Source: Gammaproteobacteria bacterium (GTDB taxonomy: Bacteria; Pseudomonadota; Gammaproteobacteria; Steroidobacterales; Steroidobacteraceae). From it: a stretch of DNA of 32,101 nucleotides. A program made the position numbers and the translations under genes. Location of the stretch: NCBI GenBank assembly GCA_030040575.1, contig JASHTK010000314.1:1-32101 (forward strand). Reading direction: 5' to 3'. Shown one piece after another: positions 18,922 to 28,220 of the stretch; position 1 is the stretch's first letter, and each line of letters opens with the position of its first letter. The notes below the pieces were generated by a model that was not told the origin of the DNA, searched no databases, and saw only the letters and a program-made list of their open reading frames with translations.

Positions 18922-19686
18922 ATGAGCGACGATCCCGAGGAGAAGCTGCCCGAAGGCACGCTCATCTCGCACCTGCTCGAGCTGCGCAACCGGCTCATGA
19001 AGGCGATGATCGCGGTGCTCGTCTGCTTCATTCCGTGCGCGTACAAGTCGAACCAGCTGTTCACGCTCATCGCGCTGCCCATCGAGCGCAGGCTCCCGAA
19101 GAACTCCCACCTCATCGCGACGGACGTGCTCGCGCCCTTCATGACGCCCTTCAAGCTCTCCCTCTACGTGGCGATCTTCATCGCGATGCCCTACGTGCTC
19201 TACCAGGTGTGGGCGTTCGTCGCGCCGGGCCTGTACCGGCACGAGAAGCGCTTCGCGCTTCCGCTCACCGTCTCCTCCGTCGTGCTGTTCTATTGCGGGA
19301 TCGCCTTCGCCTACTTCGCCGTGTTTCCCGTCGTCTTCCAGTTCATGGCCCGCACGACGCCGCCCGGCGTCGAGATGATGACGGACATCACGAGCTACCT
19401 GAGCTTCGTGATGCGGATCTTCCTCGCCTTCGGCGTCGCATTCGAGGCGCCGATCGCCGTCGTGCTGCTCGTCATCACGGGTCTCGTCAGCCTCGAGAAG
19501 CTCAAGTCGAACCGCGGCTACGTGCTCATCGCGATCTTCGTCGTCGCGGCGGCGCTGACGCCTCCCGACTCGATCTCCATGATCATCATGGCGGTGCCGA
19601 TGTACGCGCTCTACGAGCTCGGCCTGCTCTTCGCCCGGATCTGCCTGAAGGTGCGGCGCGAGGCGGAGGCGCAGAAGAAGAGCTAG
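18922..19686 (+). CDS. tatC: Sec-independent translocase subunit TatC
   Basis: Six-TM TatC: LISHLLELRNRLMKAMIAVLVCFIPCA...PFKLSLYVAIFIAMPYVLYQVWAFVAPGLYRHEKR. Confidence 0.96.
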   Translation: MSDDPEEKLPEGTLISHLLELRNRLMKAMIAVLVCFIPCAYKSNQLFTLIALPIERRLPKNSHLIATDVLAPFMTPFKLSLYVAIFIAMPYVLYQVWAFVAPGLYRHEKRFALPLTVSSVVLFYCGIAFAYFAVFPVVFQFMARTTPPGVEMMTDITSYLSFVMRIFLAFGVAFEAPIAVVLLVITGLVSLEKLKSNRGYVLIAIFVVAAALTPPDSISMIIMAVPMYALYELGLLFARICLKVRREAEAQKKS

Positions 19687-19689
19687 GCA

Positions 19690-19706
19690 GCCGCCCCGCG
19701 GGCGGC
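19690..19706 (+). repeat. GC-rich hairpin immediately after tatC (GCCGCCC-CGC-GGGCGGC)
   Basis: Perfect 7-bp inverted repeat 4 nt after the tatC stop; no T-tract follows. Confidence 0.5.
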
Positions 19707-19739
19707 CGCAGCGGTCGAGCGCCGTGCGCTTGCCTCGAG

Positions 19740-19801
19740 AAAAAAAAGCGCCGCTCGATTCCGTGTTCGCGGGGGGGCTCGCGGCACGAGATCGGCGGCG
19801 C
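19740..19801 (-). terminator. Rho-independent terminator of the minus-strand sRNA
   Basis: Minus strand: GCGCCGC-CGAT...ATCG-A-GCGGCGC followed by TTTTTTTT; inner CGTG/CACG and CGCG/CGCG pairings extend the stem. Confidence 0.8.
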
Positions 19802-19869
19802 TGCCGTGCGGGTCCAGCCGTGACCCGCTTCGCGCAGCCAAGCCCGAGGGGACGGACTTGTCTGCTCGA
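19740..19869 (-). ncRNA. Candidate sigma-54-dependent small RNA (minus-strand member of a divergent pair, ~130 nt)
   Basis: Bounded by a -24/-12 promoter (TSS predicted ~19869) and a U8 terminator. Two internal perfect or near-perfect stems (CAAGUCCG/CGGGCUUG; GCGGGU/ACCCGC). Shares GGACCCGCACGGCAGCGCCGCC with the + strand partner. Confidence 0.68.
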
Positions 19870-19878
19870 GCACCGCCG

Positions 19879-19895
19879 ATGCAACACCTATGCCA
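19879..19895 (-). promoter_or_regulatory. Sigma-54 (-24/-12) promoter, minus strand: TGGCATA-GGTG-TTGCAT
   Basis: Reverse complement of 19879-19895 gives GG-N10-GC with exact spacing; 10/12 of TGGCACG/TTGCA consensus positions. Confidence 0.7.
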
Positions 19896-20009
19896 CCCGG
19901 GCGATACCGGCTCACCGCTCGCCTGGACAATGACTTACGCGTGCACGGACCGTGTGGCGCCGCGAGGGCCGCGGCGGGGTTGATCCGGGTTGGCACAGCC
20001 GTGAGCGGC

Positions 20010-20030
20010 GTTGCACGATGATTGTGCAAC
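20010..20030. promoter_or_regulatory. NtrC-like enhancer dyad A: GTTGCAC-GATGATT-GTGCAAC
   Basis: Perfect 7-bp inverted repeat with the TGCAC-N7-GTGCA geometry of NtrC sites; centre ~151 bp upstream of the minus-strand TSS. Confidence 0.65.
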
Positions 20031-20116
20031 CACATCGGAGCAACCCTCGCGCGGGTCCGAATCGAGCCGCGCTCGAGCGGCTCTCTCCGGTCTCGCGGAC
20101 CGTGCGGCGGCCGCTC

Positions 20117-20131
20117 GCACGAACTCCGTGC
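20117..20131. promoter_or_regulatory. NtrC-like enhancer dyad B: GCAC-GAACTCC-GTGC
   Basis: GCAC-N7-GTGC, centre ~155 bp upstream of the plus-strand TSS and ~104 bp (about ten helical turns) from dyad A. Confidence 0.55.
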
Positions 20132-20252
20132 ACGCGCCGGGGCGGGATGCTCCGCTTCGAGTCGCCGGCACCGAGGCTGCATGAGCGCCGCTCGAGCCCG
20201 CCGCAGCTTAAGTGTTTGGACGGCAAGCCTTCCCTGCTCGCCGCGCCCGTCG

Positions 20253-20268
20253 TGGCACGGAGGTTGCA
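20253..20268 (+). promoter_or_regulatory. Sigma-54 (-24/-12) promoter, plus strand: TGGCACG-GAGG-TTGCA
   Basis: Matches TGGCACG-N4-TTGCW at every core position with correct GG/GC spacing. Confidence 0.82.
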
Positions 20269-20278
20269 GCGAGCTCTC

Positions 20279-20388
20279 CTGCCGATGGCCGTGTACACGG
20301 CACGAGGCAGATCGGAGAGCGGATCTGCACGGGCAGCGCCGCCAACTCGAACGCACGCCGCAGGTGCATTCGGTTGGCGGCGTTTTTT
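20279..20388 (+). ncRNA. Candidate sigma-54-dependent small RNA (plus-strand member of a divergent pair, ~110 nt)
   Basis: Starts ~12 nt after the -12 GC and ends at a 10-bp stem + T6 terminator. First helix CTGCC...GGCAG begins at the predicted +1. Shares GGATCTGCACGGGCAGCGCCGCC with the minus-strand partner. Confidence 0.72.
20337..20388 (+). terminator. Rho-independent terminator of the plus-strand sRNA
   Basis: CGCCGCCAAC-t-CGAA-c-GCAC-[GCCGCAG]-GTGC-a-TTCG-GTTGGCGGCG followed by TTTTTT. Confidence 0.87.
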
Positions 20389-20473
20389 CACGGGCTCGGT
20401 GAGCTGCACCGCGCGCCGCAACCGGCGCGCCGCCGTGAGTGCGCGGCTGCTCCCCGAGGACTAAGCTGCCCGC

Positions 20474-21304
20474 GTGGACACTTCGGCCCTCGTCGGACGC
20501 ACGATCGCAGTGCCGGAGACCCGCGAGCTTGACGTCTTTGCAGGCCTTCTCGAGCGCCGCGGCGCGACGGTCCTGCGCTGCCCGCTCGTCGCCATTCGCG
20601 ATGCGCCGCATCCCCCGACGGTGCTCGCGTGGATGCGGTGGTTCGCCGCGGGAGGCTGCGACGATCTCATCCTGCTCACCGGAGAGGGCCTGCGCCGGCT
20701 GATTGCCTGCGCGAGGCGCCACGAGCCGGCCCTCGAGAAGCCCTTCCTCGCGCAGCTCGCGCGGGTGCGCAAGATCACGCGCGGCCCGAAGCCGGCCCGC
20801 GCCCTCAAGGAGCTCGGGCTCAGCGCCGATCTGCCCGCCGCCGCGCCGACGACCGAAGGTGTCATCCGGACCTTGAGCAGCGTGGAGCTGCGCGGTCGCC
20901 GCGTCGGCGTGCAGCTGTACGGCACCGAGCCCAACCTCCCGCTCGTCACGTTTCTGCAGGCCGCGGGAGCGGTCGTCTCGACGGTCGCGCCGTACGTGTA
21001 CGCGGACGCCGCCGACGATGGCGCGGTCCGCGCGCTGCTCGATCGGATGGCATCCGGCACCGTCGATGCGATCGCGTTCACGAGCGCCTCGCAAGTCGAC
21101 CGTCTGTTCGCCTGCGGGCCCGAGGAGCTCGTGCAGCGCGCGCTCGGCCGGACGATGGTGGCGGCGGTGGGCCCGGTCGTCGCCGCCGCGCTCCAGGCGC
21201 GAGGTGTGCGCACGCGAGTGATGCCGGCCGAGTCGTTCTTCCTGAAGCCGCTCACCTCGGCGCTCGAGGCGGCGCTCACCGATCCTGCGGCGCCGCGCTC
21301 CTGA
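20474..21304 (+). CDS. Uroporphyrinogen-III synthase (HemD) family protein
   Basis: VGRTIAVPETRELDVFAGLLERRGATVLRCPLVAIRDAP ... VDAIAFTSASQVDRLF...VAAVGPVVAAALQARGVRTRVMP; HemD-like bilobed pattern; GTG start with GAGGA upstream. Confidence 0.82.
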   Translation: MDTSALVGRTIAVPETRELDVFAGLLERRGATVLRCPLVAIRDAPHPPTVLAWMRWFAAGGCDDLILLTGEGLRRLIACARRHEPALEKPFLAQLARVRKITRGPKPARALKELGLSADLPAAAPTTEGVIRTLSSVELRGRRVGVQLYGTEPNLPLVTFLQAAGAVVSTVAPYVYADAADDGAVRALLDRMASGTVDAIAFTSASQVDRLFACGPEELVQRALGRTMVAAVGPVVAAALQARGVRTRVMPAESFFLKPLTSALEAALTDPAAPRS

Positions 21305-24290: not shown

Positions 24291-27200
24291 ATGTGGAACC
24301 CCACGAAAACTGTGTCGGAGCGCGCGCCCGACTTCGGTCCCGAGGTCCGCGTGCGGCCGATGTGGCTCGTCGGGCTCTCGCTCGCCATCTTCCTGGTGGA
24401 CGCAGGGGTGCCGCTCGGCTCGGGAGCCGGAGTCGGCTACATCGCGGTCGTTCTGGCGAGCCTGTGGAGCTCGCGCGCCGGCTACACGTGGGGTGCGGCG
24501 GCCCTGTGCACGGTCCTCACCCTCGCGCGGATCGCCCTGGCGCACGGCGTGCACTCGTGGGCGATCGTCGCCGACCGCGGCCTCGCGGTCTTCGCGATCT
24601 GGACGGTCGCATCGCTCAGCGTGTGGCAGAAGCGCACGACGCTCGCGCAGACGCGCGCCCAGAGCGAGGCGGCGCGCGCGCTCGAGACCAATGCGGCTCT
24701 GAAGGCCGCGCTCGCGCGCACCGAGGCGGCGGAGGCGCAGCTGCGCAGGGGACAGCGGCTGCTCGACACCGTCGCCACGATGGCGCGGATCGGCGGCTGG
24801 GAGATCGATCTGGCGACCATGACGCCCATCTGGTCGCAGGAGGTCTACCGCATCCACGAGGTCGATCCCTCGACGCCGCTCGAGCTCGCGAGCACGTTCG
24901 ACTTCTACGCGCCTGAGGCGCGCCCGCTCGTCGAGAAGGCGCTGCGGGATGCGATCGAGCACGGCGCGTCCTTCGACCACACCGTGCCGCTCATCACGGC
25001 GACCGGACAGAGACGCTGGCTGCGCGCGATCGGCGTTGCCGAGCGCACGAACGGGGTGACGACCCGACTGTCCGGAGCGTTCCAGGACGTGACGGATCAG
25101 CACGAGATCCAGGTGCGCTTCGCGCGGGCGTCGCGCTCGAGCTCCGAGGGGCACTGGGACTACGACTTCGGCACGGAGACCGTGTGGTGCTCGGCGACCC
25201 ACGAGGAGCTGCTCGGCTTGCCGCCGCGCGACTCGCGCATCCCGGCGAGCGAGTTTCGCGCCCGGGCCCATCCCGAGGACCAGCCGCGGCTCGCGGCGGC
25301 GTTCCAGCAGCACATCACCGACGGTGCGCCCTACGACGTGCAGGTGCGGATGCGAGCCGGCGGCGCGTGGCGCTGGTTCCGGGCGCGCGGCGCCGTCGAG
25401 CGTGACGACCTCGGGCGGCTCACGAGCTTCGCCGGCTCGCTCATCGACATCCACGAGGAGCGCGAGGCGCAGGAGGAGCTGCGGCGGGTGCGCGGGCGTC
25501 TCGAGCGGGCGATCCACGGCACGCAGGACGGACTGTGGGAGTGGGACATCGCGAGCGACACGATGTGGATCTCGCCGCGCTACGGCGAGCTCCTCGGGCA
25601 GCCCGTGCGCGAGCTGACGACCACCCGCGAGAGCATGGTCGCGCTCATCCATCCGGATGACTTGCCGCGCATCGTCGAGGTGACGCAGGGGCACCTCGCG
25701 CGAGGCGCACCGTACGACGTCGAGGCGCGCATGCGCATCGCGAGCGGCGAGTACCGTTGGTTCAGGCTGCGCGGCAAGGTGGAGCGGGACGGCGCGGGAC
25801 GGCCGCTCACCCTCTCCGGCTCGACGCAGGACATCACGCCGAGGAAGATCGCCGAGGCCGCGCGCATCGAGGCGGAGGAGCGGCTCGGGCGCGCGATCCG
25901 CGGCAGCTCCGACGGCCTGTTCGACTATCTGGTCGCCGAGGACCGGTGGTGGTACTCGCCCCGCGTGCGCGAGATGCTCGGCTACGCGGCGGACGAGCCG
26001 ATGCCGCGCGTGCTCACCGAGCGGATGACCGCCGAGGACCGCGAGCGGGTCGTGCAGGCGATGCGGCGGCACTTCGAGGAGGACGTGCCGCACGAGGTGG
26101 TCTACCGGCTTGCCACGCGGTCCGGCGAGTGGCGCTGGTTCCGCGCGCGCGGCCGCTGCGAGCGCGATGCCGCCGGCAGGCCAACGCGGTTCTCCGGCTC
26201 GATCCAGGACATCACGACTCAGCGCGAGGCGGAGGCGGCGCTGGTCGCGGCCAAGGAGGCCTCCGCCGCGGCCAATCGGGCGAAGAGCGAGTTCCTCGCC
26301 AACATGAGCCACGAGATCCGCACGCCGATGAACGGCGTGCTCGGCATGACGGAGCTGCTGCTCGACACCTCCCTCGAGCCGGTGCAGCGCGAGTTCGCCG
26401 AGACGATTCGCGCGAGCGCGACCTCGCTCCTGGGTGTGCTCAACGACATTCTCGATTTCTCGAAGATCGAGGCCGACAAGCTCGAGATCGAGCAGGTCGC
26501 GATGGACGTGCGCGAATGCGTCGAGGACGTGGGCACGATGCTGGCGATCCAGGCCGCGGCGAAGAGCCTCGAGCTCATCGTCAACGTCGATCCCGCCATC
26601 CCGGACCTCGTGCTCGGCGATCCGCATCGCCTGCGGCAGATCCTCACCAATCTCACCGGCAACGCCGTGAAGTTCACCCAGCAGGGCGAGATCGTCGTCG
26701 AGGCGGTCGTCGATCGCGCGGAGGCCGGGCGCGTGACGCTGCGCTTCGAGGTTCGAGATTCCGGAGCCGGCATGTCCGCCGAGGTGCTGAGCCGGCTGTT
26801 CCAGCCGTTCGTGCAGGCCGACGCGTCCACCACGCGACTTTACGGGGGGACCGGGCTCGGCTTGTCGATCGTCAAGCGCCTCGTCGAGCTCATGGGCGGG
26901 CGCATCGATGTCGCGAGCGAGCTCGGCAAGGGCTCCACGTTCACCTTTACGCTGCCCTGTCCGCTCGTCGATGGCGTCGCGAGCGTCGCCGCGCCGGTCT
27001 GCGTGAGCCCGCGGGAGCGGCGCGTGCTCGTCGTGGACGACAACAAGACCAACCAGCGCGTCCTGTGCGGGCAGCTCGAGCCCGCCGGATACACCGTCGC
27101 GACCGCGGGCAGCGCCGCCGAGGCGCTGCGCGAGCTCGTCGAGTCCGCGCGCGCCGGGAGCCGCTTCGACGTCGTGATCGCCGACGATCAGATGCCCGAC

Positions 27201-28220
27201 TGCGACGGCGGCGGGCTCGCGACGAGCGTGCGGGCGATTCCCGAGATCGGCGACACGCAGTTCATCATGCTCACCTCGCTCGATCGACACGGCAACGTGC
27301 AGCGCCTGCAGGAGCTCGGCTTCGCCGGGTACCTCACGAAGCCGGTGCGCGGCCGGGAGCTGCGCGCCTGCGTCGAGCGGGTGCTCGAGCGCGATGCCAT
27401 CCCGGCCGCGACCTCGCTGCCGCGCATGGTGACGCGCGGCTCGCTCGCGGCCGACCACGGGCCGGCCCGCTTCCGCGGACACGTGCTCGTCGTCGAGGAC
27501 AACTCCGTCAACCAGCAGATCACGCGCCGCTTCCTCGAGCGGCTCGGCTGCGAGGTGGAGGTCGCCGAGAACGGCCAGCGGGCGATCGAGTTCTGCGCGC
27601 GGACGCGCTACGATTTGATCCTGATGGACGTGCAGATGCCGGTGATGGACGGACTCGCGGCCACCCGGGAGATCCGCCGCCACGAGGCCGGCGACCGCCG
27701 CACGCCGATCATCGCGCTCACGGCGAGCGCCATGACCGACGAGCTCGAGCGCTGCATCGCCGCCGGCATGGACGGCCTGCTCACCAAGCCGCTCGAGCCG
27801 GTGAGGCTCGGGGAGACCCTCGCCCGGCACGGCCTGGCAGGCGAGGGCGCGACGATCACCGCGCTGCCGCTGCTGCGGCCGGCCGCGCAGGCGATCGACC
27901 TCGCCCGCCTGCGCGCGATCGTCGGGGAGGATCACGAGTTCGTCCAGGAGCTCTGCCGGACCTTCCTCGCGAGCAGCGGCCGCATCGTCGATGAGCTGCG
28001 GCGCGCGCTCGCGGTGGACGACCGCGCCTTGCTCGGCGCGCTCGCTCACAAGCTCAAAGGCGGCAGCGGCAGCGTCTGCGCGCAGCGCGTCGGCGATCTC
28101 GCGGCGGTGCTCGAGCGCAGCTCGGCGACGCGCTCCGCGGTCGATCTCGGCGAGCTCGTCGAGCAGATCGTCGCCGCGATCCGCGAATGCGCCGGCTTCA
28201 TCGAGGCGCAGGTCGCATGA
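24291..28220 (+). CDS. Hybrid sensor histidine kinase: N-terminal TM segments, tandem PAS domains, HisKA-HATPase, two REC domains, HPt
   Basis: Repeated (R/Y)RWFRxRGxxERDxxGRxTxxSGSxQDIT PAS/PAC motifs; [25 protein letters not shown]-box; [51 protein letters not shown]...[13 protein letters not shown]; HPt HKLKGGSGS. Confidence 0.93.

Follow-up and report, generated by a model that had tools for sequence, protein, structure and literature searches.

Divergent sigma-54 units between tatC and hemD as probable orphaned leaders of a deleted nitrate-assimilation cluster

The 32,101-base stretch of Steroidobacteraceae DNA analysed here (the window) contains, between tatC and hemD, two sigma-54 units that point outward from a gene-free centre. 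We conclude, with a probability of about 0.9, that both are orphaned 5' leader RNAs (attenuators) of a nitrate-assimilation (nas) cluster that has been deleted. The evidence consists of homology to leaders in related genomes, gene order, gene loss, conservation of the individual elements, and the finding that the same genome encodes RpoN and NtrC. An earlier note on this DNA had described the units as a mirrored pair of small RNA (sRNA) genes arising by inverted duplication; most of its anatomy holds, but its account of their origin does not.

The gap measures 787 bp (19687-20473, not 788 bp as noted earlier), between the stop codon of tatC at 19686 and the start codon of hemD at 20474. Both flanking genes lie on the plus strand: tatC at 18922-19686 (Pfam TatC, 1.5e-70) and hemD at 20474-21304 (Pfam HEM4, 1.7e-31). 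Elsewhere in the window, 24291-28220 encodes a large hybrid histidine kinase that combines several PAS domains with receivers and an Hpt domain. No intact gene was seen in the gap, as the earlier note had held, but a decayed nasT fragment is present at 20056-20119, which its reader could not have recognised because relatives are needed to see it. The pattern TGGCAYRN4TTGCA occurs at two sites in all 32,101 bases, both inside the gap, against none in 100 shuffles (0.00 expected). The minus-strand site, TGGCATAGGTGTTGCA, lies at 19880-19895 (its start had been placed one base away, at 19879) and is kept in all nirB leaders, and the plus-strand site, TGGCACGGAGGTTGCA, lies at 20253-20268 as first located and is kept in relatives. 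We refer to the minus- and plus-strand units as units 1 and 2. A generic sigma-70 promoter scan found nothing.

Each promoter is accompanied by an upstream NtrC-like enhancer, so that the mirrored arrangement described earlier is confirmed. For unit 1 this is TTGCAC-N7-GTGCAA at 20011-20029 (GCAC-N7-GTGC core at 20013-20027), 132 bp from the -24 element, and for unit 2 it is GCACGAACTCCGTGC at 20117-20131 (GCAC-N7-GTGC), 136 bp from the -24 element. Among the leaders found in relatives, the NtrC-like site is mostly 113-153 bp upstream of -24, commonly 131-136. The unit 1 enhancer is kept at a similar distance in the nirB leaders of genomes G001, G002, G006 and G009 and is degenerate in that of G003; the unit 2 enhancer is identical in G003 and lies near -135 in other transporter leaders. 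Putative IHF sites, assigned by motif, are TAAGTCATTG (reverse CAATGACTTA) at 19928-19937 on the minus strand, 42 bp before the -24 element of unit 1 and aligned with TAAGTCnTTG in G002, G003 and G006, and TAAGTGTTTG at 20209-20218 on the plus strand, aligned in the same three genomes. The window genome (G000) encodes both RpoN and NtrC, the latter at 686 bits against a curated cut-off of 558.6, and the features of an NtrC/sigma-54 promoter, namely -24/-12 elements, an NtrC-like site and the two proteins, are all found.

From predicted starts, unit 1 would give an RNA of ~130 nt (19740-19869, minus strand) and unit 2 one of ~110 nt (20279-20388, plus strand), and the lengths proposed earlier are supported for this genome. 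Both would end at the hairpins and T runs first pointed out: the unit 1 terminator or attenuator occupies 19740-19802 on the minus strand (-34.1 kcal/mol, z -4.2; U8, T8 at 19747-19740) and that of unit 2 occupies 20335-20388 on the plus strand (-34.7 kcal/mol, z -5.4; U6, T6 at 20383-20388). The whole predicted transcripts fold with z = -4.8 (unit 1) and -4.4 (unit 2), and no shuffled sequence folded as well as either these or the terminator hairpins. A simple terminator scan detected neither terminator, probably owing to the length of the stems and the interruptions in them. The near-identical 3' motif of the earlier note is GGCAGCGCCGCC, which is common to both units and opens each terminator. 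Relative to three congeners, the alignment shows a double change in the unit 1 terminator, where an A-U base pair has become G-C. RNAalifold recovered only 7 pairs from the mixed leader alignment, because the terminator arms differ in length between the unit types, and individual folds were used instead. An Rfam covariance-model search with both RNAs gave no match at the gathering score, and a permissive search gave only chance matches (E 0.75-4.5) to unrelated families.

The folds also contain candidate hairpins of the ANTAR-binding type, for which an A1/G4 hexaloop with a C:G closing pair has been published as the defining rule (PMC3369931; PMC7496416). The second hairpin, P2, conforms to it in both units, with the core GGC[AGCGCC]GCC at 19794-19805 (minus strand) in unit 1 and at 20332-20343 (plus strand) in unit 2, a C:G closing pair and a hexaloop with A1 and G4. 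The core GGCA[A/G][C/T]GCCGCC is invariant across all 10 aligned leaders. In the folds the terminator uses the 3' arm of P2 within its own 5' arm, so P2 and terminator overlap and are mutually exclusive. The first hairpin, P1, has a 7-nt loop (ACGGCTG) in unit 1 (19808-19828, minus strand) and an 8-nt loop in unit 2 (20307-20328, plus strand); the canonical A1/G4 hexaloop is absent from P1 in the window and in most relatives, and among the leaders inspected it is well formed only in the transporter leader of G009. We therefore do not classify these leaders as canonical two-hairpin ANTAR members. The P1 loops of the transporter leaders at loci L163, L164, L168, L170, L134 and L191 share an [A/G]A[C/T]AGC-like pattern, that is A-N-N-G one position off the canonical A1/G4, and this offset suggests a family-specific variant of NasT recognition.

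Comparison with relatives identifies what the two units once preceded. DNA similar to the locus, promoters included, was found in all three available congeners, and the promoters, enhancers, hairpins and terminators of both units are kept in relatives, the outcome the earlier note had looked for. Unit 1 leads straight into nirB in G001, G002 and G003, and homologous leaders lie directly 5' of nirB in G006 and G009 as well. The homologues of unit 2 are leaders of MFS/NrtA-type transporters (in G002, G003, G006, G009, G110, G137 and others), and in G002 and G003 the gene that directly follows is an MFS transporter. The orthologues thus sit between promoter and nas genes, the position of a nas attenuator leader; in the window itself no such genes follow. 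The two units are separated by ~2 kb in G003 and G002, and Pfam and family searches place nasT (receiver-ANTAR) and nasS (NMT1_2) between the leaders there and in G006. In G006, which belongs to another genus, tatC, the nas cluster and hemD are all on one contig. G001, G002, G003 and G006 carry a BFD-like domain after tatC and antisense to it, which is probably the end of nasC. The ancestral order would accordingly have been tatC, nasC to nirB (leftward), leader 1, nasT-nasS (rightward), leader 2, the nitrate transporter and hemD.

Some of these loci depart from this order or carry further features. One G001 locus (L096; G001:C478, 1483-1687) keeps nasT and nirB with its leader, but nasS, leader 2 and the transporter are gone; in the absence of NasS, the NasT protein might be active constitutively. 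Further sigma-54-like sites near the start of nasT in several genomes (L134, 6649-6664, minus strand; L171, 1809, plus; L172, 1916, plus) suggest that nasTS is under NtrC control too. In G002 (L095, 5657-5697) the transporter ORF overlaps the start of hemD, and the linkage of hemD with nas genes may be a means of supplying nitrite reductase with siroheme.

An RNA model built from ten leaders was run over 150 genomes of the family. Apart from the G024 locus described below, its strong matches outside the training set had a sigma-54 promoter on one side and nirB, nrtA or an MFS gene on the other, and the leaders so found were in G110, G137, G145, G128, G107, G067 and G159; 126 of the 150 sampled genomes gave no match. 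An order-wide search with strict filters turned up no leader beyond the family at E<=1e-5.

The distribution bears directly on the origin proposed earlier, a purpose-built pair of sigma-54-dependent sRNAs made in this lineage by inverted duplication of an sRNA gene. Such a pair would account for units that are complete and strongly folded and whose RNAs align with each other better than shuffled sequence does. However, in at least ten other genomes the orthologues serve as leaders of protein genes, each unit matching the leader (attenuator) of a separate nas operon, and this linkage refutes an sRNA origin; a nasT remnant also lies between the units. Other genera of the family have both leader types, so any duplication predates the genus and was not an event at this locus. 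The two units may still share a common origin, and their similarity reflects shared NtrC/sigma-54 control and a shared ANTAR protein, NasT. We consider the purpose-built pair highly improbable.

If the units are orphaned leaders, the lack of protein genes between tatC and hemD would be a secondary loss, and its traces are visible. Compared with G003 by BLAST, window positions 19740-20031, 20056-20119 and 20116-20403 match three separate stretches, the middle one inside nasT. This middle remnant (~63-64 bp, plus strand) matches G003 nasT at 78% of nucleotides and reads PNRAALERLSPVSRTVRRPLA, where functional NasT has PNRDVLEQMFQVSR[L/S]VRRPIA in G003, G002, G006 and G107; the remnant has decayed at codon position 2. 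Family searches found no ANTAR domain, NasS or NirB in the window genome, an 83%-complete assembly in which copies encoded elsewhere are possible, and found an ANTAR protein in each of G001-G003, G006 and G009. NirB matches in the window genome at 1e-14 were rejected as other pyridine-nucleotide oxidoreductases, covering residues 92-282 only at ~32% identity. With no cognate ANTAR protein in the assembly, we treat the two units as orphaned leaders and not as working members of the ANTAR class. On this comparison, the nas genes appear to have been removed by several deletions that left both leaders whole.

The same absence might instead have been created in assembling the metagenome bin, and an assembly in 389 contigs, 83% complete, is fragmented enough to raise the question. 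Dropping the nas genes in this way would, however, require at least three separate deletions, one of them leaving a diverged nasT fragment, and no long repeats link the joints. In addition, a genome of another genus, G024, has reached the same outcome independently, and an artefact seems very unlikely.

In G024 (96% complete) a truncated nasT pseudogene lies upstream of hemD, flanked by two divergent sigma-54 units, and NirB was not found in this assembly. In unit B the P2 is perfect, the NtrC-like site stands at -135 and the terminator is very stable; unit A has diverged further, and its canonical P2 and strict enhancer are lost. This second orphan pair arose independently of that in the window. 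Although G024 has lost nasT, it still encodes a different receiver-ANTAR protein (L102, 1414-2268, minus strand; G024:C29).

The position of both pairs next to hemD invites the reading that unit 2 now serves as the hemD leader, tying uroporphyrinogen-III (heme/siroheme) synthesis to nitrogen status. Through the deletion, hemD now follows a sigma-54 promoter and attenuator at a distance of 86 nt, unit and gene lie on the same strand at similar spacing in the window and in G024, and in G002 hemD comes after the transporter gene. Nevertheless, the terminator is intact, and the assembly holds no NasT to relieve termination. A conserved G[G/T]ACTAAGCT precedes the hemD start codon at 20457-20466 of the window and likewise in G001 and G002; it is perhaps the -10 element of a leaderless promoter that belongs to hemD itself. 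A hemD leader would also leave unit 1 unexplained, and we hold this reading to be unlikely.

As orphaned leaders, the units can be placed in a mechanism derived from known NasT and NasR systems. NtrC control of nas genes has been published for Pseudomonas stutzeri (PMC8443478) and NasT binding to the nasA leader for Paracoccus (PMC3795266). Transcription of the ancestral leader would have begun at an NtrC-activated sigma-54 promoter and stopped at the intrinsic terminator. Nitrate would have freed NasT from NasS, and NasT bound to P2, which competes with the terminator, would have let RNA polymerase pass into the nas genes. Judged from the anatomy of the window, nitrogen limitation would still lead phosphorylated NtrC to switch on both promoters; since NtrC and RpoN are present and NasT is absent from the assembly, every transcript would terminate, yielding two short RNAs, one of ~130 nt and the other of ~110 nt.

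Whether such RNAs would be relics or retained products can be approached by comparing rates of change. Of the sites invariant among functional relatives, 6/123 have changed in the window leaders and 9/46 in the nasT remnant (Fisher p = 0.005), which favours a constraint on the RNAs that outlasted the constraint on nasT. By the same measure, the gene-bearing congeners G002 and G003 show 11/134 and 7/130 changed sites, and private changes in the window leaders are no more numerous than in relatives with the genes. Within the orphaned-leader account, these observations would fit attenuator leaders kept by selection as stand-alone, trans-acting RNAs driven by NtrC and sigma-54 under nitrogen limitation. 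Coding DNA has gone save for the nasT scrap, yet both units are complete, and G024 retains a complete unit B beside its nasT pseudogene. The comparison is nevertheless limited by the nasT fragment, which is only 63 bp and may come from a gene that died first, and it is biased because the locus was noticed for its intact promoters. In addition, neither the canonical P2 nor the strict enhancer survives in unit A of G024, and 126 of the 150 sampled family genomes are without such an RNA. A literature search for orphan leaders turning into sRNAs returned nothing relevant. We therefore consider selection for a trans-acting role doubtful, and continued function of any kind only slightly less so; plain relics are the more likely outcome.

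The locus corrects a tempting annotation: leaders of deleted operons can pass for sRNA genes when they lie in a gap without genes. It is also a natural experiment: in two genera, regulatory RNAs have survived with promoter, enhancer, protein-binding hairpin and terminator intact after the genes under their control were gone, and the origin of new sRNA genes thereby becomes directly testable. If the leaders have indeed been retained as trans-acting RNAs, sRNA genes would have been born from leaders at least twice in the family, in the window genome and in G024. The leaders form an NtrC-plus-ANTAR regulon that is absent from Rfam.

Among known systems, GlmY/GlmZ, CrcZ/CrcY and NrsZ are sigma-54-dependent sRNAs, and the window units resemble them as short terminated RNAs with sigma-54 promoters; they differ in having no Rfam match at the gathering score and an origin as operon leaders. 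EutX and Rli55 are ANTAR-binding sRNAs that sequester EutV (PMC5821096), and the units share with them the form of a stand-alone RNA with an ANTAR-binding element; unlike them, the window RNAs have a sigma-54 promoter, no riboswitch and no ANTAR protein in the assembly to sequester. The NasR-controlled nasF leader of Klebsiella oxytoca and the ANTAR two-hairpin motif (PMC3369931; PMC7496416) share the C:G-closed P2 with A1/G4 and an overlapping intrinsic terminator, whereas most leaders of this family are without the P1 A1/G4 hexaloop. The nasA leader of Paracoccus denitrificans (PMC3795266) likewise places regulatory hairpins 5' of nas genes, as do leaders in relatives of the window genome, with nasT and nasS nearby, and the Azotobacter vinelandii nas operon, as cited in PMC3795266, has a NasT-controlled leader upstream of its nas genes. 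In contrast to these NasT-controlled leaders, the window has lost both the genes and NasT, and its leaders stand alone.
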